This document shows positions 23,670-60,206 of a stretch of DNA of 64,000 bases, piece after piece. Position numbers and translations under genes: made by a program. Each line of letters begins with the position of its first letter. The first letter of the stretch is position 1. Source of the DNA: Bryoerythrophyllum caledonicum. Lineage: Eukaryota; Streptophyta; Bryopsida; Pottiales; Pottiaceae. The stretch spans positions 9,068,291 through 9,132,290 of the forward strand of contig OZ020515.1 in assembly GCA_963971425.1 (NCBI GenBank). The letters are read 5' to 3'. Below the pieces are notes generated by a model. It did not search any database. It was given only the letters and a program-made list of their open reading frames with translations, and was not told the DNA's origin.

Positions 23670-26600
23670 CAGTAACTATGGAGTCCAGCTTGAACAACAG
23701 AGACGTTTCAGAAGGATCGAAACTGCAAGGAGGGACAAACTACTCCATTTGGTCGTTCAAGATCAAAACGACTCTTCAAGGCGAGCACTTATGGCATCTG
23801 GTAGATCCAGACCTGGCACCAGTTCTAACTGACGTAGGAGACTCATCTGAAGGTTCACTATCAAACTCAGCAGCCACAACATCTGCAACACCATCTGCAG
23901 CAACATCGAGCGCAGAAGACCAGAAGATCAAGGCAATTCGAATAATCGTATCATCAGTTAAGGATTCCCTTTAACCTCACATCATGACTTTCACTGATCC
24001 TAGACAAATGTTTAGCAAGCTACGTGCTCTATTTGAATTCAAATTTGTCAATCATAGAGTTACCTTGAGATCCCAGCTTTACAATTTGAAAATGCTAGAA
24101 AAAACCACTATTGAGGATCACTTAAAACTAATTACAATGGTAGTTGCGAAACTAGCCAATCTTGGCATCATAATCCCGGACGATGAGTTGGTCGACCGTA
24201 CTCTCACAAGTCTACCTCATAGTTGGGCTATCTTCTGTGAGATCATATCTGCACGGGAAACGCAAATAAGTTTCTTTGAGTTAGAATCCAGGTTACTACA
24301 AGAAGATGAGAAACGCTCCAGGAAAACAATTGAAGAAGCTAGACTTGCGGCCATTGATGAAACAATTAACTATACTTACAAGCGCGGAAGCAGAGACAAC
24401 CGTAGCAGCACATTGCAGCATGGTCGAGGTCGCAGTAACTCACAGCAGAACGGATGGACCCTAGGCAGCTGGAATTTCGTCACAAACGGCAACACTCCGC
24501 AAGCCAACTAGAACTCAAGCGGCGGTAACTCAGGCAGCTGGAATCTCAACGGAAACAGCAACTCACGCGGTGGCGTCGGAGGCGGCCGTAGCTCCAACTT
24601 CATACAGAATCAGCGAAATAATCAAACAGGTCAGAATCCTGAAACTAGAACCTATAACCGTGGGTCTCCTCGCAGCAACTTCGGCAGAACTGGGGTATGC
24701 CACCTATGCGATAGCCCCGACCACTGGGCAGACCAATGTGAGATTTGGTTATTACAAATCCGCATCCGAGAACTTCGAAATGGACAGGGAAGAAACTCGG
24801 GACCTGCCTGGAAGGAGAATCAGGTTTACATCACAGAAACTGTCCCTGAAACTGCCACCAGTGAAGAGTCTCCACCTTCACAGACTACTCATGAGATACA
24901 CGCAACAAAATTTCATGGAGATGAATCAAATTGGTACTTAGATAGTGGAGCAAGTACACACATCACAGGTAATCAAGGGTTACTCACAGACATTAGAGCT
25001 CGACCAAAATCTTAGGTCAAAACTGCAAGTGGCCGTGCTCTCCCTGTAAACTCACAAGGTGCTATTACATTACATGGAAATAAACGGATCTCAGATATTT
25101 TGTATGTACCGGGTCTATGCAAGAATTTCTTATCTGTAGGAAAACTTGCTGACGCTAGACACTACACACTTTTTGGCCCAAGGAACTTCTGGATTTTTGA
25201 GAAAGGCACCTTCAACAAAGTCATCCTTACAGGTGATAGACCATACACCAACAACCTGTATCGCCTTCATACCTCTCCTCCAAAAGTACCTATGACAAAT
25301 GACGCCTCACCACCTCCTCAATTTGTAAACACTATTTCTTTAGCTACACCAGATCTTACGGAACTCTGGCACATGCGATCAGGTCATTTAAATTTCCAGT
25401 CCCTCTCAAACCTCTCCAGACACGGCATGGTGACAGGACTCCCCTCACTCAAGCATTCTCACCACATATGTGAAGCATGCATCTTGGGCAAACAACATAT
25501 CCATGCTATTCCTAAACAGGTAACACCTTTTACTACGAGGCCACTTGAACTTCTTCACTTTGATTTATGCGGACCTTTTCCAAGACAATCTCTTTCTCGA
25601 AACAAGTATATTCTTACATTTATTGATGATTTTTCAAGAAGAACATGGGTTTATTTTCTCACCATTAAGAGCGACACCTTTCAAACATTTCAACTATTTC
25701 AACGTCGCGTGGAGCGCGAAACCTCACTATCTATTGCCTGGATTAGAACTGATCGGGGTGGCGAGTTCTTATCTACAGAATTCAACGCATGCTGCTCACA
25801 GCAAGGTATACAGAGACAACTCATTGCCGTTCACACCCCTCAACAGAATGGTATCGCAGAAAGGAAAAACCGTCATCTTTGTGAAACCATGAGAACACTC
25901 TTATTTGGCGCCTCTCTTCCTACTTACCTTTGGGAGGAAGCTGTCCGCACCGCAAATTATCTAGCAAACCGCATGCCACACCGGTCCATTCCATCCACAC
26001 CACCTGAATGCTTCTCTGGCAGGAAACCAGATCTCTCTCACTTGCGCATCTTTGGCTGCAGAGCATATGTTCACCTACAGGACGTTAACAAACTGGATCA
26101 CAAATCCCTTCTCACTATACATATTGGCTATGATGATCAAACAAAGGCGTACAGATGCCATGACTATTCTAGAAGAAAAATTATCATCTCCCGCAACGTA
26201 CGCTTTAATGAAGGACTTCTCGGATTCTTACGTCACACTCCAGCCCTTCAGCCCACATACGACGCCTTGGACGAGTTTCTGCGTTTTTAGCACACACCTA
26301 CTCAACCTGCACAACAGCCTATTATCTCGCTGGGACCTACGCAACCTCCTTCCTTGGGACCTTCTGAATAGTCACTCCTGCCCGACAACCAACCGACAAC
26401 CCCAACCTCTCTCATACCTGCAAGCCCCTCTCGATCATAAAATCTTCCCTCGGAACCACTGTCCTCTGACTCACAACTGCCGCCCAAGTCTCCACAGCCT
26501 TCTCCGGACAGCCCAGTATCCACAGACCACAACGACTTCCCAAATCACCTTGCGAACACCGACACCTCTACGAACTCCGACACCTTATCTGATTCTCATT

Positions 26601-28345
26601 CTCTAGCTCACTCTGGTACTCTGCAGCCTACACGTCATTCCACACGATTTCGGAAACAGAGTATCAAACTAGACGATTACATTCTATCAGTCACACCTGA
26701 AGATTTTGACCTTTGCCTCACAGAAAGTCTCCCTGAACCCATTGGCGATGACCTCACATACGCTCAAGCAGCTACACATCCAGGTTGGACGAAAGCAATG
26801 CAAGACGAAATGGACTCCATCTACAAAAACGACACTTGGGATTTAGTTTCTTTACCCCCAGGCAAGAAGGCCATCTCCGCAAAATGGATATATAAGACAA
26901 AGACTCCCTTACTAGGTCAACTGCCTCGTCTCAAAGCTCGCTTAGTAGCTCGCGGGTTCCAACAACGGAAAGGAATAGACTTTGATGAAGTCTTTGCACC
27001 CGTAGTAAAATGGTCCACTATTCGTACTCTCACGGCTCATGCCGCCCGCCTTGGTCAGGACATCTACCACCTCGACATCAAAACCGCCTTCCTCTATGGA
27101 CATCTTCAGGATGAAGTTTATATGATCCAGCCACAGGGTTTCGAAGTTCCTGGCACAGAACATCTCGTTTGCAAGTTAAAAGGGTCACTCTATGGCCTCA
27201 AACAAAGTCTATGCATGTGGTATGAAGAATTTCACACCTACCTCTCATCTCTTGGATTTACTCGTAGCACCAGTGACTCAAATCTATACTACAAGGGACA
27301 AGGACGTACAAAGATACTACTTGCTATCTACATTGATGACATCTTCATTACGGGGGGGACAAACAGGAGGTCATGACCCTCACACAACAAATTGAAAAAA
27401 AAAATTGACTGTACCTTCCTTGGCATTGTTGCACGCTATTTAGGTGTTCAATTCCTGAAACGACACAATGGCATATTTCTAAACCAAACACAATATGCTC
27501 TTCAAATACTCAAGGATCATGGTATGGACAATTCAAAACCTGAACACATCCCTCTTCCAGCTGGCCTCATTCTTCTCAGTGACATGCATGCCCCAACAAT
27601 AAACCCTACATCATATTGTCAAATTGTTGGCCAGCTCATATTTCTTACTACAACCCGACCCGACATAGCATTCGTTGTCGGCCTTGTCTCCAGGTTTATG
27701 GCTGCTCCTCAAGTCCCTCACATGAATGCCGTCCTCCACATCTTACGCTATATCAAAAAAACAGTTGATTTTGGACTATTCTATCAAAGAGACAATCACA
27801 CTTTAGTTCAAGGTTATATCGATGCCGATTGGGCCTCCTGCAATGATACTCGCAAATCCACTGGTGGTTATTGTTTTTTATGGGCGGGGTCAACTATCAC
27901 ATGGCAAAGTAAACAACAACCAACAGTTTCCAAGAGTTCCACTGAATCAGAGTATCTCAGTCTCTCAAACGGCGCCTCCGAAGCAGTATGGCTTAAACGA
28001 CTCCTAGAAGAACTAGAATCAGACACTACACCCACACCTGCTCTATCTATCACCCTTAGCAACTCAGATATACATAGAAATCTACATCCACCTGTCACTA
28101 TATCCATGCACTGTGACAATCAATCAGCAATCAAACTCGCCAAGAATCCCGTCTTTCACGCCCGAACCAAACATATTGAAGTTCACCATCATTTTATACG
28201 CGAACGGGTTTTGCGGGGGGAAGTAACACTACACTATGTATCAACAAATGAACAAACAACCGACATCTTTACCAAATCCCTCTCTCGTAACAAGTTTGAA
28301 AAACATAGAGACACACTAGGTATCACCAGCCTTCTACACTAGTCA
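23670..28345 (+). pseudogene. Copia gag-pol region, broken
   Basis: Recognisable parts in order, rough positions: gag (about 23.7-24.75 kb, ending near a CCHC-type knuckle), aspartic protease (around 24.95 kb, DSGAS), pre-integrase and integrase core (about 25.3-26.1 kb), reverse transcriptase (about 26.8-27.5 kb, with YIDDI) and RNase H (about 27.8-28.3 kb, DADWA). It is a fossil, not expected to produce working proteins. Confidence 0.93.
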
Positions 28346-28960
28346 AAACCTCTTATATATAAGACAGCCTTCTCCATGTCCTTAAAACTTCGAAATTCAG
28401 CACCACTAAATCCTTTAACCTGGCACTCGCATTCTTTCCAAGAAGAAAACAGACCAGTACAATACCCTCTTCTTACAGCATACACCTTAAACCTCCTACC
28501 GATACCTAAAACTGGTTCTTCTTTTGAAACCCTAACCTCTCGTATGATATCTGGATAAAAACCCTCCTCCGAAAATTCGTTCTTACCGCTCGACGACGCT
28601 TGAACCATTGGCACCTTCTCCGAAGCCTGCTCATCCTGCCTCCCATTTCCTGGTACATCACCGCCACCAAAGAACAAGTGACCTCTTCGACCAACGACCT
28701 CTCCCAAGGCACCGAAGCACATCGCCAAAATTTGCAAGACCAAGTAAGTCGTCATCAACATCCAATCAACAAACAATTCAACCTACAAAACAACATACTC
28801 TCCTGAGCATTCTATTCATCAACAACAAAACCGCGATTACACAAAAAATTCTTACCAACTCCCTTGTGGTACTCATTCTTTCGACGCCATGTCTCGCTAC
28901 TCTCTTCCCTCGTCTGTGCTGTCCACTTGTAGAGTATCACACACAGGTGTCGCCGGGGGG

Positions 28961-29141
28961 TGTTGGACTGTGCGTCCCATCTTTCATTCTCTGTTCATCC
29001 AAAGCGGATCTCACTCCTGATTGGACCGCAGTTTGGTTTCTTAATTTTGGTCTCTGTAGACAGTATATCAGTTAGCTCATCTCTCTTGTAAATGATCTCG
29101 TGTGTGTGTTAATACACAACTGGACACCGTCCATTTCCACA
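28961..29141 (+). repeat. 3' LTR of the copia fossil
   Basis: Begins TGTTGGA, ends CCATTTCCACA, and is followed by the target duplication CACTT (29142-29146). Confidence 0.93.
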
Positions 29142-29146
29142 CACTT

Positions 29147-30605
29147 TTGTGTATCTTTTCTAATAAACTCTACTCACCCTCTTCGCAAAACCTCAGAATA
29201 ATAAGTGAAAAACGACAGCTGTGCTACGAGTGCACAGTCAATTTAAGAAATTTTCTATAATTTGAATTGTCATACACGGTTACAAAATATGTCATCTTGA
29301 ACTGAAAATACAAAAATAAAAAATGTGTGGAATGAAGGCAAAATCTTGTCAGATTTCCTGGCTATGACCATATTCTTGTGCACACTGGAGATCGTCCAAC
29401 TAAACACATCCGGAAGTTGCTGCGAATTGGTGATGTCCGAAACCGATTGAGAACAACTTCCTGATCAGCATCCCCAGCTTCCAACTCGAAATGCTATGGT
29501 GTAAGCTCCTCCCTCACCTGATAGTACGTGGTGGGTTCCACTTCGAGTTCCCTCTATCTCCTTCGAAATCCGTCCTCCACAGCTGGTAATTCTCAGGCAG
29601 GAAACCAATGCGGTCTAATGATCTATCACGCCCAACTCTCATTCTGGAAATCGTTCCTGAAAGCCATATCTGGAGATGGTTGGCTTGACTGGCACGTTTG
29701 GAGGGAAAGTCGGCACCTGGGTGGTGGAGTGACGTTCCTGCACCACAGTTTATCACAGTTAAAGGGAATGCCCCAAAAAGGAGTGGACTCCACCTGAAAG
29801 GTTGAATCCTGAACATTCTTGGTGAGCAAGGAAGCGGAACGAAAAAGGGAAGCTGCATATTGTCGAGGGAATTCGTCACGAAAAAGCCCGGGTGCCATTC
29901 ATATCATGCCGAATTCCCACAGCCTAAAAGCTTGGAGGGGACCCCACCTCCAATTGACCCAAACTCCATCAAGGCATAACGACCTCAGTCCTGCCTCTGG
30001 GTGGTGAAACTTCCCCTAAACTTCCCCCAAACTCCCAGTTGTTGATTTTTTCAAATTGAATGTCAAAGTAAAGCTCGTCTAAAAATCTCACTCAACCCTA
30101 GTTTATATAAGCAAAGCCAATCACTTTCACCCTGGTCATTGGATGCATGACACCATTTTCCTCAGCTGAGCAACTTTGGCTCAGTCAAAATATTTTACTC
30201 ACCCTGTCGACATAATTCCCTCCTGATTCCCAAAGTGTACGGAATTCAGTCAGCTCAGGGAAAGTCAATATTGAAGCTGCTGTGGTATTCGGTAGTGGGC
30301 TCCGGCGCCAGGCTCCGTCCGGACTGGAACCGGACTTCCAAGTGTTTCTGTGTTTAAGCTTCCTACATCATTTCACCAACACTTTCGTCGGAAGGCTCCC
30401 CCTCCGCCATCCTTGAAGGGAGCTCGTGTCAAACACTTGTGGGTCATCGAAGAACGACACTGGTTCGCGTTGTTCAGCACGAATATTCACATCATGACTC
30501 CATCTTTGAATTAGCGTTCAATTCCTCAGCTGCGTCTGTGATCTCTACCTGTTTGTCTTGTCTGCAACGGCGCACAGGGTCCAATCTTAGACGCGTTCCA
30601 GGATG
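29147..30605. other. Intergenic DNA with a decayed peptide-gene copy
   Basis: Apart from the minus-strand remnant at 29517-29575 no gene is supported. TATATAAG near 30100 and TATAAAT at 30606-30612 are possible TATA boxes; the latter lies about 215 bp before the start of the copy B gene. Confidence 0.4.
29517..29575 (-). pseudogene. Decayed repeat-peptide gene copy (copy G)
   Basis: On the minus strand the frame reads FEGDRGNSKWNPPRTIR, one diverged GDGGSSKWNPP unit followed by a stop. Further upstream on that strand FRWSPLLFG may be another eroded unit. Confidence 0.5.
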
Positions 30606-30821
30606 TATAAATGAACACCTCGCCACAGGATTCAAAATATTCCTCATCTGCTTGAATCAGCTAGCTCGTTCTAAGCGCTCTTCAGGTGATCGTCGAGGGC
30701 AACTGGGAATTCATTCAGATTGTTGCTCACACCAGCATACAATTAGAATCTGACAAAATTTCTTGTAGTGACTGCTCTAGAACTCATTGATTGCGGAAAC
30801 AAAGGCTCTTGTTGCAGTACA

Positions 30822-31001
30822 ATGGCTGCTCTCGGCGATGGTGGCGCATCCAAGTGGCGACCTCCGTCCAAGTCTCGGAGTCCTCTCGGCGATGGTGGCG
30901 CGTCGAAGTGGCGGCCTCCTTCGAAGGCCGCGCCGATGGGCGACGGCGGCTCTTCCAAGTGGAGACCTTTTTCAAGACGAGATTCAATAGCAATCAATTG
31001 A
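30822..31001 (+). CDS. Repeat-peptide gene, GDGG(A/S)SKW subfamily (copy B), 59 aa
   Basis: ATG at 30822 gives a 59-residue protein with three units: LGDGGASKWRPPSK, LGDGGASKWRPPSK and MGDGGSSKWRPFSR, then a short tail. No signal peptide, membrane segment or cysteine. Between the three units the codons for Gly, Asp, Ser, Arg and Pro change at third positions (GAT/GAC, GGT/GGC, TCC/TCG, CCG/CCT) while the peptide is nearly fixed, evidence that the frame is translated and selected. It lacks the Cys-bearing linkers of the longer copies and its flanks are diverged from theirs, so it is an older branch. Function unknown; I recognise no described family. Confidence 0.75.
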   Translation: MAALGDGGASKWRPPSKSRSPLGDGGASKWRPPSKAAPMGDGGSSKWRPFSRRDSIAIN

Positions 31002-31945: not shown

Positions 31946-32579
31946 TAACAAAAGAGGTGCGCGCCAGAACCGGCCGTGCAAACCTGCACATCTTTTGGAA
32001 CCATGTCAACCTTGCAATCACAGAAACTGCCAAAGTTTTGAGCAAGACAGATCGAATTACCATGCAAACACAAGTCAACATGACTCCTCCAATGCAGCTC
32101 CAGAAGACATCCTCAAATTCAGACCATGTATTCACAAGATAGTCGTTCGACCAAAGCAGATACAGTAAATGGTGTTTACTTGGGCATTGAGGACTCTGTA
32201 CAGTGATACCAATTCAGAATTGGCCTGAACCCAAACAATGTGGCTAGTCTAAGTAATGAGGGCTCCCATGCAGGGTCCCTAAGAATGATAATTGTGAATG
32301 TGTGTGACCGCTGTAACAAGTCTACTTTCTTTTCCGAATGTCGGAGAGCTGCGCCGAGGTCGACCCAGAAGTCTGAATCACCCGGCCGAGAGAAGACGAT
32401 ACTAAGAATTAAAGAAGCCTAAAATTGCTGAAGAACTGATCAACACTGCTAGGGTCGACGCTTCACCAATGTCCATCTCCTTGAGGCCGGCTTCAGTGCG
32501 GATCATCCCTCTGGACCAACGTCGTTTCGTTTCGCCCTTCTCTATGGAGTGATGATCGTAAAGTCCTAGCTGCTTGGGC

Positions 32580-32810
32580 TCAGAACTTTCCTGGCCTCCA
32601 CTTCGACGACCCTCCGTCGCCTTCGCAGCTGTCGTCGAATCCGCAGCAGTGCGAGGGAGGCTTCCACCTTGACGACCCGCCGTCGCCCTCGGCGTGATGC
32701 GAGGGGGGCCTCCACTTTGACGAGCCACCATCGCCCTCGCAGTTGCCGCAATCGCCGGTGTACGAGAGCGGGTTCCACTTGGATGACCCTCCATCGCCTT
32801 CGCCAGCCAT
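32580..32810 (-). CDS. GDGGSSKW repeat-peptide gene (copy C), 76 aa
   Basis: ATG at 32810 (context GCAATGGCT shared with other copies). The 76-residue protein has four units GDGGSS(K/R)W at about residues 5-12, 26-33, 42-49 and 64-71, each followed by NPL, RPPS, KPPS or RPGKF. Linkers carry Cys pairs (DCGNC, HCCGFDDSC). It is hydrophilic with regularly spaced Trp and no secretion signal. It is almost identical to the 54518 copy (NPL against NPP). This copy is uninterrupted from promoter to about 600 bp past the stop and serves as the empty-site reference for the transposon insertions at 52-56 kb. A longer +1 frame overlaps it. Function unknown. Confidence 0.82.
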   Translation of the reverse strand: MAGEGDGGSSKWNPLSYTGDCGNCEGDGGSSKWRPPSHHAEGDGGSSRWKPPSHCCGFDDSCEGDGGSSKWRPGKF

Positions 32811-33079: not shown

Positions 33080-33420
33080 GGTCTGAGAAATTCGCGAAGC
33101 TCCATGGCCTTTTATGGGGCTCGCATGGTGCTGGATCAGCTTGGAGCCTTGACTGCTTAGGCTGGTCAGTCAAGAATGCAGTCGATCTGGGCCGCCGTCG
33201 GTAATCGGTTTGGGAACGCGGTATTCGGTATGCGGTTTGGAAACGCGGTATTCGGTATGTCAAGAGCGTCGCCGCTACAGCGAGTCAGCTCTACGACTCC
33301 TGGGTGGATGAGATTTTGAGAGGGCCGGCGGATGAGACTCTGGGAGTCAATCCTTTTTATTAGACTGTTGGATGAGAAATAATGAATCCGTTCGTTGTTA
33401 TTCAAGTGATTTTCAAACGG
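33080..33420 (-). promoter_or_regulatory. Promoter of copy C
   Basis: On the minus strand: the CCGACGGCGGCCC block, W-box-like TTGAC sites (33168-33173, and one in the opposite sense at 33149-33154), then the TATA box CCATAAAAGG (33108-33117) and GCCATGGAGCTTCGCG. The same order occurs at the 54.5 and 59.7 kb copies. TTGAC is the WRKY core, so stress-type control is an inference. Confidence 0.7.
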
Positions 33421-37110: not shown

Positions 37111-37777
37111 GTATAGCAGGTATGCTATCTCTCTTCAATTTAAATCCTATAGGACCAAGGCAGTTTGAAGAAATCTATACTCCATTGATAAAAAACTACT
37201 GAGAAGAACTTATTGAGAATATAATCTTGGGATCTTCTTTAGATTGGAGAAAAACATTTTAAAAAGTACAAATTTCAAAACTTTGTGTCTATACATATTG
37301 TATAAGAATGAAACTCTTTTTTGTACAATGCCTCAAAATATTGACTCCTCTTCAATGTGCAAAATGTTTGCACCATATGATATTATTGCAAAATCTCAAA
37401 CAAAGCTTTGAACATGGAATTCGCTAAATATGCACTTGGTCAATTTTACTTCACTCCTTCGCTGCATATAGTTCACTCATCCAAATCAATGCAACCATGA
37501 ATTTTTTTGGGTGTGCGGAGATATAGGAGATTGGTAACCACATACATAAAAGCTATTGTTTAATTTAAGGTAAGACACAACATCACTTTTTTCAATTGTT
37601 CTCCATACATTTTGCAACTTATGCAACCACTTTCATGTCATTTTTATATAATATCATTGCATACTAAAAATATTACAACTTTGATCTACTCTTCCTAAAA
37701 CTAAAATAAATCCACAATCAGGAACTAAACATCACTAGATTCTGTCTTATATAAGATACGTAGATTTCTATTTCCTT

Positions 37778-37813
<36 letters not shown>

Positions 37814-39092
37814 CTAATAATATGCATAAATTCTCGTCTACATACCATTTTCTATATCCTTCTAAATAATATTTTCTACTCTATTTTTCTATGTCTCACC
37901 CTCCAATATCACACATGGCAATATTTCTGCCATTATAATGCCACAACACACATGCTCCTTGGTCTCCCCAAATAGCATCATCCGATGCTCCGCATCCACA
38001 TCAGACGATAATTACGCTTAGAACCGTTAAGTTGATGGAGCCCTTCCAGCACAAACAACACACTCAGTGCATAAGAAGGAATGGCCTTCTCCCAAAGTCC
38101 TACCTTGCACACAACTTGGTAAATTTGTTGAGGGACTACCCTTGACCCCTAAATTACCAAGATTAACCTTGAAGGACCGGGCAGGTTCCTCTTGTGTCAA
38201 TCTTTAGCATTCTTTTTCAAAAAATTATCGTAGATGGACATTACTAAAAGCTTTGTGTGAGTCCAAGTTTTTCCCCAATCCGACATGTAATGAAAAAGTT
38301 ATACGGTTTTGAAGTTCATATGGTGAGAGCGGGCCCGTCGAGCAACTCCAAAAACTTTTGCTAAGACACTCTATTGAAGGTGATATTTTCAACAACGACA
38401 AGTAATATTATTTCCTTTCATGTTGTCAAGAAAAATCTCTTGTCTTTAGTGAGAAATAGCATATGAATCCAAGTCATACATTTTCACACATTGTCGCACA
38501 TTGTCGGGCTAAGTACCAAAAAATCTTCTTCCTTTCCACATAAAACTTAGTGATCTTCATGTTTTTACTTTTTTATTTTCCCCACGGCATTGTGTGGTGT
38601 AAACCTTTCCATTGACCATTCGGATTCTCATTCTAGAACATATTAGGTTCACAAAAAAATAAAACGTGAATTGATAGTTCTTGAACCTCCACTCCTTGCA
38701 CAATTTTTTTGAAAATGCTACAACTCTCTCCAACCTCTAAAATTTTGTGAACAAGGAGTTGATTGCATGTTCAACATGATTGTAATAGATTAACATATTG
38801 TGTAGTGCAAAAAATTCACAACAAGTGATGTCAAAGTCAGCTGATCCTCTCAAAGCATTAAAGAAAATGACATCTTCCTACATTTCAAACGCTATAATCT
38901 TCCGATCCGTACGGTCAAAAAATGTGAAATTTTGCAGGCATGTTAATGACTCAGTCGTGTTCAAGATCCTACGGTCAAAACTTGAAAATATAACCCGGAG
39001 TTTCTCCTTTACACCCTACAACAGAATCTACATTTTTAAGGCGGGTTTTGTCAAGAAACTCTAGGTGTTAAGAAAAATCAATGCAACAAAGG

Positions 39093-39216
39093 GAGGGGTC
39101 GAGGCCCTCGACCTCTCTTGCCATGCAACAAAGAGGAGGGGTCGAGGCCTCGACCCCTCATGCCATACAACACAAGGCCATACAACACAAGGGAGGGGTC
39201 GAGGCCTCGACCCCTC
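39093..39216. repeat. Cluster of 24-bp palindromes GAGGGGTCGAGG/CCTCGACCCCTC
   Basis: Perfect palindromes at 39136-39159 and 39193-39216 and a one-off variant at 39093-39117, separated by short AT-rich ACAACA(C/A)AAG spacers. Mirrored in the right arm near 46271-46394. Confidence 0.92.
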
Positions 39217-41864
39217 TTCCTCTACGCAAAGGAATTACGCAACAACTTTGAAAGCTCACATACCTTGCACATGTCTTGATAGAAAAAACCCAAAGATCGC
39301 GGGACGCCAATCAACCACCGCATCGTTTCGTCCACCGCTTCAAAAAAAAAACAAAACGACCTTCAAGTCTATGCGGAAATCCTATGAAGCAAAACACTCT
39401 TCTACCAAATGAATCCTCGAGGTTAGCTGGGATCCTTATATACTTCCAAATTGAATCTATATTTAGCAATATTTTTCAACAAACACTTAAAAAAATCCTA
39501 TAATCCATCATTTGAACATTGTACTTGTTTGAGTCACTATTAGAAGGTCAAAAATAGATAATGAAATTAGAATCAAGATATTTCATCACGACAACATGTG
39601 GGGCCCACACGAAGTTCATATTAACTACTTTTTCCCATAACTTCGTATCATCATAACTTATACCCGAATGGAATATTGGATGACTTTGGAGCAAAGGTGA
39701 AGTATGGTACGGTGGGTCCCACCACATGGATGCTTTGTGGATCGAAATTCCAACAATGCAAATATGATCATTGGTGTGAAGATCTACCGGATATAAATAG
39801 TATGTGGGGCCCACGTGGGACCCACCGTACACATTTTTTACAATATCTTGAGTTATTTTTCTTATTGAATACATGAGTCCATGCTTGTAGTTACGATTTG
39901 GTGGATCCCACCTTGGCCTCTGTATCCATATGACTCAAGATGTCATTATCTAATCTTTTTTTTATTTCCTTAAGATGACAGTTTTAATTTTCAAGTCTGA
40001 TCCTATCTCATACCTCTTTTTTATCTGGAAATTCTTCTTTTCAATCTTTTGTTACAGTATAGTAGTTAAGTATCTGTTTGTCATGAAAATATTCCATGTT
40101 TTAATGACAATTAGTTTATATATAAGAAATGGCTGAAAAATGTGAATTTCAAGTTGAACTGACGTCAAAATGGCATCACCATAACATGTGACAAAACACA
40201 TATTCTAATGATGTAACATTCACGTTGCAATGGCATAAAATTTCATCGAAATGACATAAATCGACATGAGTTAGATTGACATTAACATAAAACAAATATG
40301 ACATGACATAGATAGTAGTGAGAATGACATGAAAATTATGAATTACATCAACATAACATGCTCCAAATAATAACAAAGTATCAAGATAGCATCAAATCAA
40401 TGTTGACTAGACATTTTGTCCACCTAATATCATAATAATAAGTGCACAAATAACATTAACTTATTGCTAGTTAAATGTATGAATAATGCATGCGTTACGA
40501 GATTGTTGGTCTTTTTGATATCAAGTCGATAACAAAATGATTGAATTTAATTTTACTAATGTGAGAGCACATAGAAAATTTGATTTTCTTTGGGGCAAAC
40601 TTCATGGTCCTCCATCCCTAAATGAAAAAAGTCTTAAGGTGGGTTTCTGCAAATCTCGGGCACGTTCCCATAGTTGCAGCTTATATAAAAGATTCTTGAA
40701 TTTTTTTACAAAGATGCAAGAAGACAAGAGGTGCATGGGAATCTAATTTTTATTCTCATTGGAGCTATGAAAAAAAAGTCGTGCCATCTCAAATTAAAAC
40801 TTCCCAAGTGCGGGCAAGTCGGGCAACTCCAAAAACTTTCACTAGGACATTGTGTTCAATGTGAGGTTTTCAATACTAGAAAGTGATATAATTTCCTTTC
40901 ATATTGTCAAAAAAATTCTTGTCTGTGGTGAAAAATAGCATATCAACCCAAGTCAAACATTTTCACACATTGTCACATTTTGTTGGGCAAGGGACCAAAG
41001 AAACTTCTTCTTGTCCACATTAAACTTAGAGATCTTCATTTTTCAACTTCTCATTTTTTCCAAAACAACTTATGGTGGCTACCTTCTTATTAACCATTTG
41101 GATTATCATTCTAACACATATTAGATTCACAAGAAAATAAAACGTGAATTGGCACTTTTTGAACCTCCTCTCCTTGTACAATTTTTACAAAATATGCTAC
41201 ATCCTTTTTCTATCTCTAAAAATTGGTGTACAAGGAACTAATATCATGATTAACATGATGGTAATGAATTTAGGCCATGAGTAGTGCAAAAACATGACAC
41301 CAAGTGAAGTCAAAGTTTGCCAATCCACTCAATGCAAGGATGAAAATAGACCACTTTCTCAACTTCAAACACTATGATCTTTCAATTAGTACGGTCAAAG
41401 TTGATGGAATCTTGTGAGTATGTTACTCAATGGGTCTTAATTGAGAACCTACAGTTTTGAACTAGAGATAAACGTTTTTCTTTCCTTAGTTACTCATTGC
41501 AATAGAGTCAACAGTTTTGAAGTGCTTTTGGTGTGAAATTTGCAAGGGTATTTGGGGCTTAGATAAACCTGTCTTTATATTTGCGCTAGGGATATGTCAC
41601 TGTAGTCTTAAATTATTGATTTACAAAGCCTCCAATAGTGGTGCTGGTTCCTTTTCTTAAGCTGTGATTGACTGTTGAAGATGGCACTTTGCTGGACTTT
41701 GACCACTGTTTGGTCGTTACCGTACCACTTTATTGAATGAAATCTGCTGAAACTCCAATGCAAATATCAAAGTGCAGCTGTCCCTTTGGTGTTTGTGTTT
41801 GTAGTGCCTGATACATGTTTTTGTACAACCAAGAGTTGTGATAATTTTTTCCTTTTAATTGAAT

Positions 41865-42064
41865 NNNNNNNNNNNNNNNNNNNNNNNNNNNNNNNNNNNN
41901 NNNNNNNNNNNNNNNNNNNNNNNNNNNNNNNNNNNNNNNNNNNNNNNNNNNNNNNNNNNNNNNNNNNNNNNNNNNNNNNNNNNNNNNNNNNNNNNNNNNN
42001 NNNNNNNNNNNNNNNNNNNNNNNNNNNNNNNNNNNNNNNNNNNNNNNNNNNNNNNNNNNNNNNN
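41865..42064. other. Assembly gap, 200 N, equal to 31 bp in the other arm
   Basis: The bases flanking the gap match 43590 and 43622 of the right arm, which are joined there by 31 bp containing GGTCAAATTGTGCC. The N run is thus a placeholder 169 bp too long. Confidence 0.93.
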
Positions 42065-42335
42065 AATCTCTATGGGACTATTTGTACCCACAAGGTACAC
42101 TTCGAGTTTAGGCAAGTTCTCAAAATTGATATTTTGCAGGACTCTTTTTGGATATATAATTTAATATAGATATATGAGTTCTCATTGTAGAGATGTTTTC
42201 TTTTTCTTTTTCATTGGATTTATTGAAAATAAGTTGTTGTAGTTTGAACACCAAATGCTTGACTCTAAGGTTGTTGTGCAAGATACCATATACCTCAATT
42301 GTACTACATTGGAGTTGAATAGTTCATTTATTTGA

Positions 42336-43320: not shown

Positions 43321-46300
43321 TCAAATAAATGAACTATTCAACTCCAATGTAGTACAATTGAGGTATATGGTATCTTGCACAACAACCTTAGAGTCAAGCA
43401 TTTGGTGTTCAAACTACAACAACTTATTTTCAATAAATCCAATGAAAAAGAAAAAGAAAACATCTCTACAATGAGAACTCATATATCTATATTAAATTAT
43501 ATATCCAAAAAGAGTCCTGCAAAATATCAATTTTGAGAACTTGCCTAAACTCGAAGTGTACCTTGTGGGTACAAATAGTCCCATAGAGATTAGGTCAAAT
43601 TGTGCCATCATACATTTATCACATTCAATTAAAAGGAAAAAATTATCACAACTCTTGGTTGTACAAAAACATGTATCAGGCACTACAAACACAAACACCA
43701 AAGGGACAGCTGCACTTTGATATTTGCATTGGAGTTTCAGCAGATTTCATTCAATAAAGTGGTACGGTAACGACCAAACAGTGGTCAAAGTCCAGCAAAG
43801 TGCCATCTTCAACAGTCAATCACAGCTTAAGAAAAGGAACCAGCACCACTATTGGAGGCTTTGTAAATCAATAATTTAAGACTACAGTGACATATCCCTA
43901 GCGCAAATATAAAGACAGGTTTATCTAAGCCCCAAATACCCTTGCAAATTTCACACCAAAAGCACTTCAAAACTGTTGACTCTATTGCAATGAGTAACTA
44001 AGGAAAGAAAAACGTTTATCTCTAGTTCAAAACTGTAGGTTCTCAATTAAGACCCATTGAGTAACATACTCACAAGATTCCATCAACTTTGACCGTACTA
44101 ATTGAAAGATCATAGTGTTTGAAGTTGAGAAAGTGGTCTATTTTCATCCTTGCATTGAGTGGATTGGCAAACTTTGACTTCACTTGGTGTCATGTTTTTG
44201 CACTACTCATGGCCTAAATTCATTACCATCATGTTAATCATGATATTAGTTCCTTGTACACCAATTTTTAGAGATAGAAAAAGGATGTAGCATATTTTGT
44301 AAAAATTGTACAAGGAGAGGAGGTTCAAAAAGTGCCAATTCACGTTTTATTTTCTTGTGAATCTAATATGTGTTAGAATGATAATCCAAATGGTTAATAA
44401 GAAGGTAGCCACCATAAGTTGTTTTGGAAAAAATGAGAAGTTGAAAAATGAAGATCTCTAAGTTTAATGTGGACAAGAAGAAGTTTCTTTGGTCCCTTGC
44501 CCAACAAAATGTGACAATGTGTGAAAATGTTTGACTTGGGTTGATATGCTATTTTTCACCACAGACAAGAATTTTTTTGACAATATGAAAGGAAATTATA
44601 TCACTTTCTAGTATTGAAAACCTCACATTGAACACAATGTCCTAGTGAAAGTTTTTGGAGTTGCCCGACTTGCCCGCACTTGGGAAGTTTTAATTTGAGA
44701 TGGCACGACTTTTTTTTCATAGCTCCAATGAGAATAAAAATTAGATTCCCATGCACCTCTTGTCTTCTTGCATCTTTGTAAAAAAATTCAAGAATCTTTT
44801 ATATAAGCTGCAACTATGGGAACGTGCCCGAGATTTGCAGAAACCCACCTTAAGACTTTTTTCATTTAGGGATGGAGGACCATGAAGTTTGCCCCAAAGA
44901 AAATCAAATTTTCTATGTGCTCTCACATTAGTAAAATTAAATTCAATCATTTTGTTATCGACTTGATATCAAAAAGACCAACAATCTCGTAACGCATGCA
45001 TTATTCATACATTTAACTAGCAATAAGTTAATGTTATTTGTGCACTTATTATTATGATATTAGGTGGACAAAATGTCTAGTCAACATTGATTTGATGCTA
45101 TCTTGATACTTTGTTATTATTTGGAGCATGTTATGTTGATGTAATTCATAATTTTCATGTCATTCTCACTACTATCTATGTCATGTCATATTTGTTTTAT
45201 GTTAATGTCAATCTAACTCATGTCGATTTATGTCATTTCGATGAAATTTTATGCCATTGCAACGTGAATGTTACATCATTAGAATATGTGTTTTGTCACA
45301 TGTTATGGTGATGCCATTTTGACGTCAGTTCAACTTGAAATTCACATTTTTCAGCCATTTCTTATATATAAACTAATTGTCATTAAAACATGGAATATTT
45401 TCATGACAAACAGATACTTAACTACTATACTGTAACAAAAGATTGAAAAGAAGAATTTCCAGATAAAAAAGAGGTATGAGATAGGATCAGACTTGAAAAT
45501 TAAAACTGTCATCTTAAGGAAATAAAAAAAAGATTAGATAATGACATCTTGAGTCATATGGATACAGAGGCCAAGGTGGGATCCACCAAATCGTAACTAC
45601 AAGCATGGACTCATGTATTCAATAAGAAAAATAACTCAAGATATTGTAAAAAATGTGTACGGTGGGTCCCACGTGGGCCCCACATACTATTTATATCCGG
45701 TAGATCTTCACACCAATGATCATATTTGCATTGTTGGAATTTCGATCCACAAAGCATCCATGTGGTGGGACCCACCGTACCATACTTCACCTTTGCTCCA
45801 AAGTCATCCAATATTCCATTCGGGTATAAGTTATGATGATACGAAGTTATGGGAAAAAGTAGTTAATATGAACTTCGTGTGGGCCCCACATGTTGTCGTG
45901 ATGAAATATCTTGATTCTAATTTCATTATCTATTTTTGACCTTCTAATAGTGACTCAAACAAGTACAATGTTCAAATGATGGATTATAGGATTTTTTTAA
46001 GTGTTTGTTGAAAAATATTGCTAAATATAGATTCAATTTGGAAGTATATAAGGATCCCAGCTAACCTCGAGGATTCATTTGGTAGAAGAGTGTTTTGCTT
46101 CATAGGATTTCCGCATAGACTTGAAGGTCGTTTTGTTTTTTTTTTGAAGCGGTGGACGAAACGATGCGGTGGTTGATTGGCGTCCCGCGATCTTTGGGTT
46201 TTTTCTATCAAGACATGTGCAAGGTATGTGAGCTTTCAAAGTTGTTGCGTAATTCCTTTGCGTAGAGGAAGAGGGGTCGAGGCCTCGACCCCTCCCTTGT

Positions 46301-47673
46301 GTTGTATGGCCTTGTGTTGTATGGCATGAGGGGTCGAGGCCTCGACCCCTCCTCTTTGTTGCATGGCAAGAGAGGTCGAGGGCCTCGACCCCTCCCTTTG
46401 TTGCATTGATTTTTCTTAACACCTAGAGTTTCTTGACAAAACCCGCCTTAAAAATGTAGATTCTGTTGTAGGGTGTAAAGGAGAAACTCCGGGTTATATT
46501 TTCAAGTTTTGACCGTAGGATCTTGAACACGACTGAGTCATTAACATGCCTGCAAAATTTCACATTTTTTGACCGTACGGATCGGAAGATTATAGCGTTT
46601 GAAATGTAGGAAGATGTCATTTTCTTTAATGCTTTGAGAGGATCAGCTGACTTTGACATCACTTGTTGTGAATTTTTTGCACTACACAATATGTTAATCT
46701 ATTACAATCATGTTGAACATGCAATCAACTCCTTGTTCACAAAATTTTAGAGGTTGGAGAGAGTTGTAGCATTTTCAAAAAAATTGTGCAAGGAGTGGAG
46801 GTTCAAGAACTATCAATTCACGTTTTATTTTTTTGTGAACCTAATATGTTCTAGAATGAGAATCCGAATGGTCAATGGAAAGGTTTACACCACACAATGC
46901 CGTGGGGAAAATAAAAAAGTAAAAACATGAAGATCACTAAGTTTTATGTGGAAAGGAAGAAGATTTTTTGGTACTTAGCCCGACAATGTGCGACAATGTG
47001 TGAAAATGTATGACTTGGATTCATATGCTATTTCTCACTAAAGACAAGAGATTTTTCTTGACAACATGAAAGGAAATAATATTACTTGTCGTTGTTGAAA
47101 ATATCACCTTCAATAGAGTGTCTTAGCAAAAGTTTTTGGAGTTGCTCGACGGGCCCGCTCTCACCATATGAACTTCAAAACCGTATAACTTTTTCATTAC
47201 ATGTCGGATTGGGGAAAAACTTGGACTCACACAAAGCTTTTAGTAATGTCCATCTACGATAATTTTTTGAAAAAGAATGCTAAAGATTGACACAAGAGGA
47301 ACCTGCCCGGTCCTTCAAGGTTAATCTTGGTAATTTAGGGGTCAAGGGTAGTCCCTCAACAAATTTACCAAGTTGTGTGCAAGGTAGGACTTTGGGAGAA
47401 GGCCATTCCTTCTTATGCACTGAGTGTGTTGTTTGTGCTGGAAGGGCTCCATCAACTTAACGGTTCTAAGCGTAATTATCGTCTGATGTGGATGCGGAGC
47501 ATCGGATGATGCTATTTGGGGAGACCAAGGAGCATGTGTGTTGTGGCATTATAATGGCAGAAATATTGCCATGTGTGATATTGGAGGGTGAGACATAGAA
47601 AAATAGAGTAGAAAATATTATTTAGAAGGATATAGAAAATGGTATGTAGACGAGAATTTATGCATATTATTAG

Positions 47674-47709
<36 letters not shown>

Positions 47710-48076
47710 AAGGAAATAGAAATCTACGTATCTTATATAAGACAGAATCTAGTGATGTTTAGTTCCTGATTGTGGATTTATTTTAGTTTTAGGAAGAGTA
47801 GATCAAAGTTGTAATATTTTTAGTATGCAATGATATTATATAAAAATGACATGAAAGTGGTTGCATAAGTTGCAAAATGTATGGAGAACAATTGAAAAAA
47901 GTGATGTTGTGTCTTACCTTAAATTAAACAATAGCTTTTATGTATGTGGTTACCAATCTCCTATATCTCCGCACACCCAAAAAAATTCATGGTTGCATTG
48001 ATTTGGATGAGTGAACTATATGCAGCGAAGGAGTGAAGTAAAATTGACCAAGTGCATATTTAGCGAATTCCATGTT
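43321..48076 (-). repeat. Right arm of the giant inverted repeat
   Basis: 4756 bp, complete, with no gap. Similarity to the left arm ends at 48076 inside CCATGTT; the following TTTGGCATTCTAG has no counterpart left of 37411. Confidence 0.95.
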
Positions 48077-49415: not shown

Positions 49416-49520
49416 TGTGTCCAAATTACCGACGGCCGGCGCGATCGACTCAAATCTTGACCGACTACTCAGAGCCGTGGAAACACCCCGGCTGAGCTTC
49501 ATAAAAGCCAAGGGATTTTC
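49416..49520 (+). promoter_or_regulatory. Promoter of copy D
   Basis: ACCGACGGCCGG, W-box-like TTGACC (49457-49462) and TATA-like CATAAAAGCC (49500-49509), in the same order as the other copies. Confidence 0.6.
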
Positions 49521-49784: not shown

Positions 49785-49949
49785 ATGGCTGGCGAAGGCG
49801 ATGGAGGATCATCCAAGTGGAACCCGCCCTCGTACACCAGCGATTACGACGACTGCAAGGGGGATGGTGGCTCCTCAAAGTGGAGGACCCCTTTGCATCA
49901 CGCCGAGGGCGACGGCGAGTCGTCAAAGTGGAGGCCAAGAAAGTTTTGA
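49785..49949 (+). CDS. GDGGSSKW repeat-peptide gene (copy D), 54 aa
   Basis: ATG at 49785 in the shared context TTGCAATGGCT. It is a shortened member with three units: GDGGSSKWNPPS, GDGGSSKWRTPL and GDGESSKWRPRKF. Relative to the 76-residue copies one unit and the HCCGFDDSC linker are missing, probably through unequal recombination between the internal repeats. The linker reads YTSDYDDC, like the 59.7 kb copy. A glutamate replaces one Gly in the last unit. Downstream DNA shares the family's 3' sequence up to CCAAATAAACTATG near 50320. Function unknown. Confidence 0.75.
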   Translation: MAGEGDGGSSKWNPPSYTSDYDDCKGDGGSSKWRTPLHHAEGDGESSKWRPRKF

Positions 49950-50344
49950 GATGAACCAACTTCTCAAAGAACATCTCTGTACAGCGAACTGCGAAACAAA
50001 ACGGGGGTCTTTTGGAGTGATTTGTGATGAATTGTCTCTTGAAGACCCGTACATTGCTCAAGTGTCGACCCTCGAAGTGTTGATCATTCCTTCAGCAGAT
50101 TTAAGACTTTTAAAGATTTTTTCCGGCGCAGTCATTTACGCTTGGTGGATCAACCCCAGCCGAGCATTCCGATATTCGGAGTAGAAAGTAGAGTTACAGC
50201 GCTTATACACACTTACTATTCTTTTGGGAGCCTGCATGGGAGCCCATAGTACGTAGATTATTCACATTCTTTTGGGTCCAGGCCAATCCCGAATTGGTGA
50301 TGTACGGAGACCTCAACTCCAAATAAACTATGATTCATTAATTT

Positions 50345-51473: not shown

Positions 51474-51724
51474 TAACGGCCGCCCTACTTACCACCAAAA
51501 CTAGGTCATCCATACCATGCCGAGCTGACGAGTGACCTACAACCGAGTCAAAAATTGAAAGGGGATTGAACCTTTCCAAATAAAGTGAATGTTCTTTCAA
51601 CTCCCAAACTTCAAGGGACTCTAGAGGCACCCAATTTTTTTTAGAAAATGTGATTTCTTCCCCAGCTTTGACCCCAAGTGTCCCACATTCACTCCCAGAT
51701 GCCCATTTCCTTGTCAAAGTCGTT

Positions 51725-52088
51725 TTAAAACCACTTCGTAATAACTAACGGATTCCTCATTTCTCATCCAACAGTCTCATCCATAGCAGGCCCACCTCCA
51801 AGAGTCTCATCCGCCGGCTCTCTCAGAGTCTCATCCAGCAAGGACTTGAAGAATTGACTCGCTGTCGCGGCGACGCCGTGGAGAATGGACGCGTTTAGAA
51901 ACCAATACCGACGGCGGCCCAGATCGCCTGCATTCTTGACTGACCAGTCAACCAGTCAAGATTCTAAGCTGATCCAGCACCATGCGAGCCCCATAAAAGG
52001 CCATGGAGCTTCGCGAATTTCTCAGACCACAACTTCATCACATCAGATCATCACGAGCTGCATCGACACAACGTCAAGCTAGCTCACA
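51725..52088 (+). promoter_or_regulatory. Promoter and 5' leader start of copy E
   Basis: Contains three (A/C)AGTCTCATCC or GAGTCTCATCC words, the CCGACGGCGGCCC block, W-box-like TTGACT (51936-51941) with two inverted partners (51946-51951 and about 51954), and TATA box CCATAAAAGG (51991-52000). The leader then follows copy C until 52088, where a CACTA-like element interrupts it. Confidence 0.72.
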
Positions 52089-53662: not shown

Positions 53663-54315
53663 CACAAGGGGCCGCAGGAGGCATTACCACTTGAAGACAT
53701 AGTAAACACCACACTTTTCCTAGGTATGCCTAATGAGCATGTGGTAACTTGCATTCCTTGAGCAAAAAAAAGGCTAAGAAAGTAATTGCTTGTGTTTTGA
53801 CATATCACATTACCATGAGTGCAAATCATGTGTGAAAGTCATGTGAGAAAGTCATGTGTCAATGTTCCATGTGTGAAATCATGGTTGCTTCTTTATCCCA
53901 TATTGTTTGTCTCGGGCAAGTGAAGGGAGGGGTATAAGTAGTGGAGGTGGCTTCAAGAGAGTTACTTGTGTGGACATGGTTAATTCTAGCTATCCACTAG
54001 TTAGGACTAATTCGAGTTCGTATTTTGTGGGCATGGCTAGCTAAGTTCTGAAGTCATGGATTGAAAATATTGAAATTGTTTAGTTGAAATTAGAAGATTG
54101 AAATGGAACCCTATGTGAATATTGAAGAAATTATCATATGTGAAAACAAAACAATTTACCATGTGAAAATTCCTTAAAGATTCACGAAAAGCATGTGGTA
54201 CTGTCGCATTTTTCCCACATGGGGTGACTTTACCACATTAGTGTTATTCTTTGCTAAATAAGGAGAGAAAAACAGCTGGTTTACCATGTGGTAATGCCTC
54301 CTGCAGCCCCTTGTG
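53663..54315. mobile_element. CACTA-like element 2, 653 bp
   Basis: Starts CACAAGGGGC, ends GCCCCTTGTG, with target duplication TGC (53660-53662, 54316-54318). Only 12 bp of host leader (ACATCTGCCTGC) separate it from element 1. Nearly identical to element 3 apart from a 26-bp deletion. Confidence 0.85.
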
Positions 54316-54517
54316 TGCATTCTGACTCTTCCCGGCGGTAGCTACATACGAGAGCATCATTCTACCAGGCACTTTCCACCGAAGACTTGGTTGCGCACAT
54401 TCTTGTAATCAGATCTGGTCATTCCTGACTTGTAGCTAGCTCACTCCATTAACTGGACCTTGACAAGTACTTCGTTGACAATATCGAGATTCTCAGCAAA
54501 GCATATCACCGGTGGCA

Positions 54518-54748
54518 ATGGCTGGCGAAGGCGATGGAGGGTCATCCAAGTGGAACCCGCCCTCGTACACCGGCGATTGCGGCAACTGCGAGGGCGATGG
54601 TGGCTCGTCAAAGTGGAGGCCCCCCTCGCATCACGCCGAGGGCGACGGCGGGTCGTCAAGGTGGAAGCCTCCCTCGCACTGCTGCGGATTCGACGACAGT
54701 TGCGAAGGCGACGGAGGGTCGTCGAAGTGGAGGCCAGGAAAGTTCTGA
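54518..54748 (+). CDS. GDGGSSKW repeat-peptide gene (copy E), 76 aa
   Basis: ATG at 54518 in GGCAATGGCT. Four GDGGSS(K/R)W units separated by SYTGDCGNCE, SHHAE and SHCCGFDDSCE. Between units the codons differ (GAT or GAC; GGA, GGT or GGC; TCA, TCG or TCC; AAG or AGG) without changing the peptide beyond Lys/Arg. It is a near twin of copy C at 32.8 kb. Its leader is split by two CACTA-like insertions about 200 bp upstream of the ATG, and a third lies in the 3' region, yet the frame is intact, so the insertions may be recent or the gene may still be read from a nearer promoter. No signal peptide. Function unknown. Confidence 0.82.
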   Translation: MAGEGDGGSSKWNPPSYTGDCGNCEGDGGSSKWRPPSHHAEGDGGSSRWKPPSHCCGFDDSCEGDGGSSKWRPGKF

Positions 54749-55102
54749 GCCCAAGCAGCTAGGACTTTACGATCATCACTCCATAGAGAAGGGCGAAACG
54801 AAACGACGTTGGTCCAGAGGGATGATCCGCACTGAAGCCGGTCTCGAAGAGACGGACATTGTCGAAGCGTCGACCCTAACAGTGTTGATCATTCCTTCAC
54901 CAGTTTTAAGCTTCTTCAGTTCTTTCTTTCGACTTTTCCCTGCGGGATCATTCAGACTTCTGGGTCGACCTCGGCGCAGCTCTCCGACATTCGGAGTAGG
55001 AAGTAGACTCGTTACAGCGCGCGCACACACACACACTTATCATTCTTTGGGACCCTGCATGGGAGCCCTCATTACATAGACTGGCCACATTGTTTGGGCC
55101 CA

Positions 55103-55781
55103 CACAAGGGGCCGCAGGAGGCATTACCACTTGAAGACACAGTAAACACCACACTTTTCCTAGGTCTGCCTAATGAGCATGTGGTAACTTGCATTCCTTG
55201 AGCAAAAAAAGGCTTCTTTTACTACTTCTAAGATCCACTAAGAAAGTAATTGCTTGTGTTTTGACATATCACATTACCATGAGTGCAAATCATGTGTGAA
55301 AGTCATGTGAGAAAGTCATGTGTCAATGTTCCATGTGTGAAATCATGGTTGCTTCTTTATCCCATATTGTTTGTCTCGGGCAAGTGAAGGGAGGGGTATA
55401 AGTAGTGGAGGTGGCTTCAAGAGAGTTACTTGTGTGGACATGGTTAATTCTAGCTATCCACTAGTTAGGACTAATTCGAGTTCGTATTTTGTGGGCATGG
55501 CTAGCTAAGTTCTGAAGTCATGGATTGAAAATATTGAAATTGTTTAGTTGAAATTAGAAGATTGACATGGAACCCTATGTGTGAATATTGAAGAAATTAT
55601 CATATGTGAAAACAAATCAATTTACCATGTGAAAATTCCTTGAAGATTCCCGAAAATCATGTGGTACTGTCGCATTTTCCCCACATGGGGTGATTTTACC
55701 ACATTAGTGTTATTCTTTGCTAAATAAGGAGAGAAAAACAGCTGGTTTACCATGTGGTAATGCCTCCTGCAGCCCCTTGTG
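55103..55781. mobile_element. CACTA-like element 3, 679 bp
   Basis: Starts CACAAGGGGC, ends GCCCCTTGTG, with target duplication CCA (55100-55102, 55782-55784). It interrupts the conserved TTTGGG...CAGGCCAATTC sequence of the copy E 3' region; copy C shows the uninterrupted form. Confidence 0.88.
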
Positions 55782-55784
55782 CCA

Positions 55785-56220
55785 GGCCAATTCTGAATTG
55801 GTATCGATCAATGTACAGAGTCCTCAAATGACTTATAAACACCATTTACTATACTTGATTTGGTTGAACGTCTATCTTGTATATTTACAGTCAGATTTTG
55901 AGGATTACTTCTAGAGCTGCAGCGGAGTGACTTGGTTATCCGAATCGTCTCGCTCAAAAACTTTTGCAGTTTCTGTAATTGCAAGTTTGTTTTTAAACCA
56001 GGCGACTTGGTTCGGAAAGATGTGCCGGTGTATGAAAGAGAAATATGTTGGGTATGCGTCACTGCCAATAGCCGTTGACTTGCAAGAGGCTACTAATCCA
56101 GATCATGTGGAGGTAGACGATGAACTCATTTTCCATTTTCCTCGAAAGAGATCGAATGGCGTGTATTCACTGGTAGCGAGCCTGTCGTTTTACAGCCGCA
56201 AAGAGGAAGAGGGTGAGTGA
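55785..56220 (+). other. Conserved 3' region of copy E with a possible exon
   Basis: Matches the copy C downstream region (31950-32200, minus), including CAATTCTGAATTGG and GCAGTTTCTGT(A/G)ATTGCAAG. A 97-codon frame (55927-56220) with DDELIFHFPRKRSNGVYSLV ends near a possible donor GGTGAGTG. It could be an untranslated tail or an exon of a neighbouring gene; not recognised. Confidence 0.35.
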
Positions 56221-59379: not shown

Positions 59380-59500
59380 CTTCCTAACCTCATGCCGACG
59401 GCGGCCCTGCTCGGCTGCAATCTTGACCGGAAAAATCAATAGCTGCTCCGGCAACATCTGAGCCCCATAAAAGGCCATCGAGCTTCAGGAATTCATCAAA
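59380..59500 (+). promoter_or_regulatory. Promoter of copy F
   Basis: GCCGACGGCGGCCC block, W-box-like TTGACC (59423-59428), TATA box CCATAAAAGGCC (59464-59475), then GAGCTTCAGGAATT. Same architecture as the other copies. Confidence 0.72.
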
Positions 59501-59740: not shown

Positions 59741-59974
59741 ATGGCTGCCGAAGGCGATGGAGGGTCATCCAAGTGGAACCCGCCCTCGTACACCAGCGAC
59801 TATGACGACTGCGAAGGAGATGGTGGCTCGTCCAGGTGGAAGCCCCCCTCGCACCATGCCGAGGGCGACGGCGGGTCGTCGAGGTGGAAGGCTCCTCCCT
59901 CGCACTGCTGCAGGTTCGACGACAGCTGCGAAGGCGACGGAGGGTCGTCGAAGTGGAGGCCAGGAAAATTCTAA
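59741..59974 (+). CDS. GDGGSSKW repeat-peptide gene (copy F), 77 aa
   Basis: ATG at 59741 in TTGCAATGGCT. Four units: GDGGSSKWNPPS, GDGGSSRWKPPS, GDGGSSRWKAPPS and GDGGSSKWRPGKF, with linkers YTSDYDDCE, HHAE and HCCRFDDSCE. Against copy E it has one extra residue and several synonymous and conservative changes, so it diverged earlier while keeping every repeat. The promoter, about 245-bp leader and 3' sequence are uninterrupted, making it the cleanest gene of the set with copy C. No signal peptide or membrane segment; function unknown. Confidence 0.85.
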   Translation: MAAEGDGGSSKWNPPSYTSDYDDCEGDGGSSRWKPPSHHAEGDGGSSRWKAPPSHCCRFDDSCEGDGGSSKWRPGKF

Positions 59975-60206
59975 GACCAAACAGCTAAGAATCAATGATC
60001 ATCTTTGTACAGTAAGGCGCCAAACCAAAAGGCAGTCACCCGGCGTGACCTACCTTTCTGTGGAGCCGCACAATGCTGAAGCGTCGACCCTCGGAGTGTT
60101 GATCATTCCTTCAGCAGATCTGAGAATCTTCTATTCTTCATATCATTACTCTCCTGCGCTGTCATCCGGACTTATGGGCCGACCCATGCAAGCCACCCCA
60201 CATTAG

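Follow-up and report, generated by a model that had tools for sequence, protein, structure and literature searches.

The window analysed here, a stretch of 64,000 nucleotides (nt) from Bryoerythrophyllum caledonicum (GCA_963971425.1, contig OZ020515.1, positions 9,068,291 to 9,132,290 of the forward strand), contains a local cluster of small genes that encode tandem repeats of the unit GDGG(S/A)S(K/R)W(R/K/N)P(P). Seven loci encode this unit at present or did so formerly; five of them are open from ATG to stop codon, and two are relics. A preliminary description of this DNA had reported seven loci, proteins of 54–77 residues and three or four Trp-bearing units, all of which are indeed present. 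The open reading frame (ORF) of c54 (54518–54748, forward strand) encodes 76 residues with four units of the form GDGGSS(K/R)W(R/K/N)P, and that of c32 (32580–32810, reverse strand), also with 76 residues and four units, differs from it at one residue. Four units are likewise found in c59 (59741–59974, forward; 77 residues), and c49 (49785–49949, forward; 54 residues) has three, having one unit and linker fewer. The fifth open copy, c30 (30822–31001, forward; 59 residues), carries three units GDGG(A/S)SKWRP and no Cys, and represents a divergent subfamily. Among the relics, c22 (22596–22670, forward) is a pseudogene that retains the last unit only, with a 1-nt deletion inside it and a 3′ region nearest to that of c49, and c29 (29529–29565, reverse) is one decayed unit (EGDRGNSKWNPP), which over 36 nt matches unit 1 of c54 with 81% identity.

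In a search with a profile of 12 unit sequences, all from the window, the 18 units of the five open copies score 17–30 bits and c29 reaches 5.2 bits; the other matches listed, both halves of the frame-shifted c22 among them, fall below 0 bits. Trp is present in every unit, giving three to four per protein, and the units start 16–23 residues apart. Cys-containing linkers, which had been attributed to the family as a whole, do not hold as a general trait: there are five Cys each in c54 and c32, four in c59, one in c49 and none in c30. A CxxC in linker 1 is shared by c54 and c32 and lost in c59 and c49, and an HCC...C in linker 3 occurs in c54, c32 and c59. The motif is kept while unit spacing, Cys content and linkers vary. 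Within the units of the open copies, Trp is flanked as in K-W-R, R-W-K or K-W-N, and the arrangements K-W-K and R-W-R do not occur; in unit 2 of c59, both flanking residues are changed compared to c54.

The ORFs of the four open Cys-type copies are more conserved than their flanks in all six pairs, which are not mutually independent (p from 2.3e-20 to 3.2e-8). The pair c54/c32 differs at 2 of 231 ORF positions versus 71 of 576 flanking ones (p = 6e-9), and the corresponding values are 20/231 versus 213/540 for c54/c59, 17/165 versus 195/512 for c54/c49, 20/231 versus 219/546 for c32/c59, 18/165 versus 200/518 for c32/c49, and 24/165 versus 197/538 for c59/c49. The codon-based ratio of replacement to silent substitution rates (dN/dS) lies between 0.16 and 0.65, and the split between silent and replacement changes is significant by itself in three pairs (p = 0.00025, 0.0006 and 0.003). 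In the DNA alignments, the ratio of the proportions of replacement and silent differences (pN/pS) is 0.14–0.34 over the six pairs in frame 0, the frame of the ORF; in five pairs it is 0.82–2.71 in frame 1, where c54/c32 had no silent change, and 0.59–0.69 in frame 2. In c59/c49, silent divergence equals that of the flanks (13/35 versus 197/538, p = 1), with 10 replacement differences in 127 sites. Units within one gene show a pS of 0.59 and a pN of 0.08 (24 unit pairs pooled from five genes), although this pN is biased low because the units were picked by motif. When drift was simulated at flank rates (5000 runs each), the maximum protein identity to c54 was 0.90 for c32, 0.51 for c59 and 0.55 for c49; the observed identities, 0.99, 0.89 and 0.80, lie above every run. 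Neutral dN/dS between the copies, which had been named beforehand as an outcome speaking against a gene family, is not found: the ORFs are conserved relative to their flanks, and the units vary mainly at silent sites. The five open copies are almost certainly protein genes, and selection acts on the frame of the family ORF, with its start and stop.

A second shared feature, absent from the preliminary description, is a promoter block of the form CCGACGGC-N20-TTGACY, which lies upstream of all five Cys-type copies, including the pseudogene c22, and at no other site in the 64 kb. Upstream alignment and pattern search place it at 33168–33201 (reverse) for c32, 59395–59428 (forward) for c59, 49429–49462 (forward) for c49, and 22483–22516 (forward) for c22. 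In c54, inserted DNA of 2.2 kb lies between the block (51908–51941, forward; CCGACGGC ... TTGACT) and the ORF region. A TATA-like box follows 36–50 nt past the block; its sequence is CATAAAAG in all of the five copies but c22, which has CATACAAG. In c54 it reads CCATAAAAGGCCA (51991–52003, forward) and is identical in c32 (33105–33117, reverse) and c59 (59465–59477, forward), and the upstream alignment shows it with one mismatch in c49 (49499–49511, forward) and c22 (22567–22579, forward; CATACAAG). Taken alone, the TATA-like pattern with two mismatches allowed is not enriched in the window (8 matches versus 7.2 expected), and five of the eight matches are at family copies. In 20-column windows, mean identity is 0.69–0.76 over the block and 0.73–0.78 over the TATA-like box versus 0.29–0.59 in between, as measured over c54, c59, c49 and c22 (c32 was omitted as a near-copy of c54) with gaps counted as mismatches. 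A TATAAAT also lies 216 nt upstream of the ATG of c30 (30606–30612, forward). The block contains RCCGAC and TTGAC(C/T), which we take to be the cores of the dehydration-responsive element/C-repeat (DRE/CRT) and of the W-box, respectively, and their presence suggests stress induction. DREB factors are described as controlling genes of the late embryogenesis abundant (LEA)/dehydrin type (PMC10358736); what the excerpted literature bears out is DREB action on such genes and via DRE, and not the core names as used here.

The encoded proteins are hydrophilic and Gly-rich, with 15–22% Gly, a grand average of hydropathy (GRAVY) of −1.54 to −0.91 and a negative FoldIndex in the four of five proteins scored (c32 was left out). 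Hydropathy reveals no hydrophobic N-terminus in any of the five (best 10-mer mean −0.65 to +0.56), so the earlier statement that a signal peptide is missing stands on hydropathy. AlphaFold2, run with an alignment of the five sequences, gave a mean predicted local distance difference test score (pLDDT) of 51.8 and no secondary structure.

In agreement with the claim that the proteins contain no known domain, Pfam returned no family at E ≤ 1 for any of the five, LEA and PF10950 included. The motif strings have no printed occurrence in the text of 5.39 million papers, where sequences in figures or supplements would escape, and topic searches, judged by titles and abstract openings, found no description of the family. 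Among viral contigs, 13 stretches matched the pattern and none was confirmed as a relative; the prokaryote genome contigs gave 281 such stretches, none confirmed, and the phages no match, which says little because these are the wrong organisms for a plant family. Two PDB matches (E = 0.0085 and 0.074), both to tandem cyanovirin-N dimers, were rejected as composition matches in which no stretch passes alone. The view that the family is undescribed is upheld in Pfam and in literature text, plant proteomes having been outside the scope, and the copies appear to form a new orphan repeat-protein family whose function we infer from sequence. Tandem-repeat proteins of 54–77 residues are easy for gene annotation to miss; here, a whole cluster is kept by protein-level selection, with a conserved promoter block next to most copies.

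The surroundings of c54 have been rearranged by insertions, for which c32 serves as the less disturbed partner. Homology in c32 spans 33435 down to 32007, and its counterpart in c54 is split into 51704–52088, 54316–55098 and 55783–55989, the breaks being DNA inserted at c54. Two of the insertions are copies of one element that resembles a miniature inverted-repeat transposable element, R1 (53663–54315, forward) and R2 (55103–55781, forward), which are 94.6% identical, have 31-nt inverted ends (CACAAGG...CCTTGTG in R1) and 3-nt duplications (TGC and CCA, respectively), and are absent at c32. Capture of c54 by a long terminal repeat element or transposon was rejected, as R1 and R2 are two insertions with separate target duplications, neither of them at c32. 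Because of the inserted DNA, the TATA-like box of c54 is 2.5 kb from the ATG, and despite an intact frame the expression of c54 may be poor. The 3′ flank of c54 (54749–55098, forward) is homologous in c32, c59, c49 and c22; its most conserved 40 nt (54867–54906, mean identity 0.86 over the five Cys-type copies) are a possible element of the 3′ untranslated region.

Long ORFs in the +1 frame overlap four copies: 54534–55079 (c54, 181 residues), 32402–32794 (c32, 130 residues), 59757–60206 (c59, 149 residues) and 49801–50184 (c49, 127 residues). Over the part that overlaps the family ORF, the +1 frame is not the selected one, because pN/pS there is 0.82–2.71 in five pairs. Downstream of the family stop, its pN/pS is 0.52–0.76 in six pairs, two of which have a pseudogene partner, and in three of the six it falls below both other frames, a ranking that carries no significance test; a coding role of this part is doubtful. 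Upstream of the ATG, an acceptor-like CTCAG/TCTAG motif was considered as the border of a spliced exon encoding a signal peptide. The stretch from motif to ATG is non-coding, because c54 and c32 differ there by a 5-nt indel and in c59 it contains an in-frame stop. The 5′ untranslated region may still hold an intron.

Other content of the window appears to be of the land plant type, with a Copia element, an RNase H1 N-terminal domain, and STIG1-like and DUF7869 frames, besides transposon frames. The Copia retrotransposon (23160–29141) lies directly 3′ of pseudogene c22, and its end repeats of 173 nt (23160–23332 and 28969–29141) are 96.5% alike. Next to the cluster, a frame at 34434–34796 matches STIG1 (PF04885), a plant family, with 25.5 bits versus a cut-off of 24.1. 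An inverted repeat of 4454 nt (37411–41864 and 43623–48076), 100% identical, resumes at 42065–42335 and 43321–43591 after a gap of 200 N (41865–42064), and is either a palindrome of very recent origin or an artefact of the assembly. Two further inverted repeats, 9624–10270 and 19738–20353 (83% identical), are perhaps the ends of one large transposon; the frames between them have sub-threshold Pfam matches only (Ulp1-type protease, SWIM/RNase H-like domain).

Taken together, the locally duplicated genes would encode a hydrophilin-type protein that is small and disordered and probably resides in the cytosol or nucleus. In this protein, GDGGSSKWRPP would act as a short sticky motif, consisting of a flexible, acidic Gly-rich stretch, a Trp beside one or two basic residues, and Pro-Pro, and its display three or four times on flexible linkers would allow multivalent binding of a partner protein or surface. 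Abiotic or biotic stress would induce the genes by way of their DRE/CRT and W-box cores. We give a rough probability of 0.4 to this reading of the family as stress-inducible, disordered, intracellular hydrophilin-like proteins whose repeats are multivalent binding motifs. If true, it adds a Trp-bearing kind to the disordered stress proteins.

Several observations weigh against this reading. The promoter cores through which stress would induce the family genes are short motifs, RCCGAC having 28 and TTGACY 103 matches on both strands of the window. The block itself has 0.01 matches expected in shuffles, but the search pattern was devised from the alignment; the promoter elements may be common to the paralogues by descent, and the block is absent at c30. 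Trp and Cys are unusual in dehydrin-type proteins, as far as the excerpt of PMC10358736 goes, and the low pLDDT may reflect a thin alignment of five close sequences instead of disorder. On the coding side, c54/c32 (two changes), c54/c49 and c32/c49 show no significant split between silent and replacement changes when it is taken by itself, and frame 2 of c54/c32 has a pN/pS of 0.00, below that of the ORF frame, on two changes. Silent sites are less diverged than the flanks in c54/c32 (1/50) and c54/c59 (11/49; both p = 0.02), and therefore the conservation of the ORFs is in part due to gene conversion or to a locally reduced rate. Substitution in core and linker does not differ significantly in any of three pairs (p = 0.08–0.47).

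A possible, if on balance doubtful, alternative is an adaptor or regulator that acts inside the cell on a single specific partner and has no relation to stress; its repeats would dock a signalling or transport protein. The motif is nearly constant from unit to unit and between the c54-type and c30-type subfamilies, which would suit such a protein, as would a chain modelled without structure, but the promoter elements point to inducibility.

Rather unlikely is a multi-core precursor cut into small Trp peptides with a signal or defence role, perhaps modified, and freed from the cytosol upon damage in the manner of systemin and the Pep peptides. The tandem, near-identical units, three or four per protein with one fewer in c49, resemble multi-core plant precursors, in which recognition sequences are described as repeating between the cores (PMC11253845, in excerpt), and a W-box core would suit a defence role. 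Against it, the conserved K/R sit within the motif, and dibasic pairs are missing between the units of all five proteins, the only two (in c49 and c30) being past the last unit. Furthermore, the units show no diversification, no hydrophobic N-terminus is found, and neither a BURP domain nor another maturation enzyme was detected in 18 further open frames scanned, although unscanned frames may hold one. A more specific version, in which lineage-specific multi-core precursors without a secretory signal, stress-induced via the DRE and W-box cores, would free a conserved Trp peptide (about SKWRPP) from the cytosol on damage, is quite improbable. If a precursor were involved, it would represent a new class of plant peptide, perhaps a signal, and peptide masses would be expected around SKWRPP and GDGGSSKWRPPS. 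Both roles are putative, and a multivalent binding protein fits better than a peptide precursor.

It is very improbable that the protein is metallothionein-like, with Cys/His linkers that serve in metal binding or redox sensing, since the CxxC and HCC...C arrangements of linkers 1 and 3, which would speak for it, are offset by the single Cys of c49, its absence from c30, and the loss of the CxxC in c59 and c49. That the copies are not genes, but a dispersed repeat or transposon passenger with frames open by chance, as the direct repeats R1 and R2 around c54 and the transposon frames of the region might suggest, is extremely improbable, being contradicted by the separate origin of R1 and R2 as insertions and by protein identities above the drift maxima.

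Compared with known systems, the family shares features with several. Burpitide and other multi-core precursors of ribosomally synthesized and post-translationally modified peptides in plants likewise have repeated units in one protein (PMC11253845, in excerpt), and signal peptides are frequent among them; the present family lacks a BURP domain and a hydrophobic N-terminus, and its units are near-invariant. The ST/SST proteins (PF10950, DUF2775) are also small plant proteins, with tandem repeats in ST, and are putative precursors of cyclopeptide alkaloids, SST proteins carrying signal peptides, according to the available part of PMC11991032; the family differs in its N-terminus and in having no PF10950 match. 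Dehydrins (LEA group 2) have a short, repeated, conserved segment in a disordered Gly-rich chain and DREB-controlled genes, and in the excerpt at hand are characterized by the K-segment and by a lack of Trp and Cys (PMC10358736). The family proteins are not dehydrins, because they contain Trp (three to four each) and, in four of the five, Cys (5, 5, 4, 1 and 0), and because the K-segment (D/E)KIK(D/E)K was absent from all five translations, as read by eye. From hydrophilins, or LEA proteins in the broad sense, the family differs in lacking a Pfam match, to LEA models as to any other, and in carrying Trp in every unit. Hydrophilins are marked, in the excerpt of PMC6036803, by about 6% Gly or more and high hydrophilicity, and with 15–22% Gly and its strongly negative GRAVY the family resembles them in being small, Gly-rich, very hydrophilic, modelled without structure, and equipped with a DRE-type promoter core.
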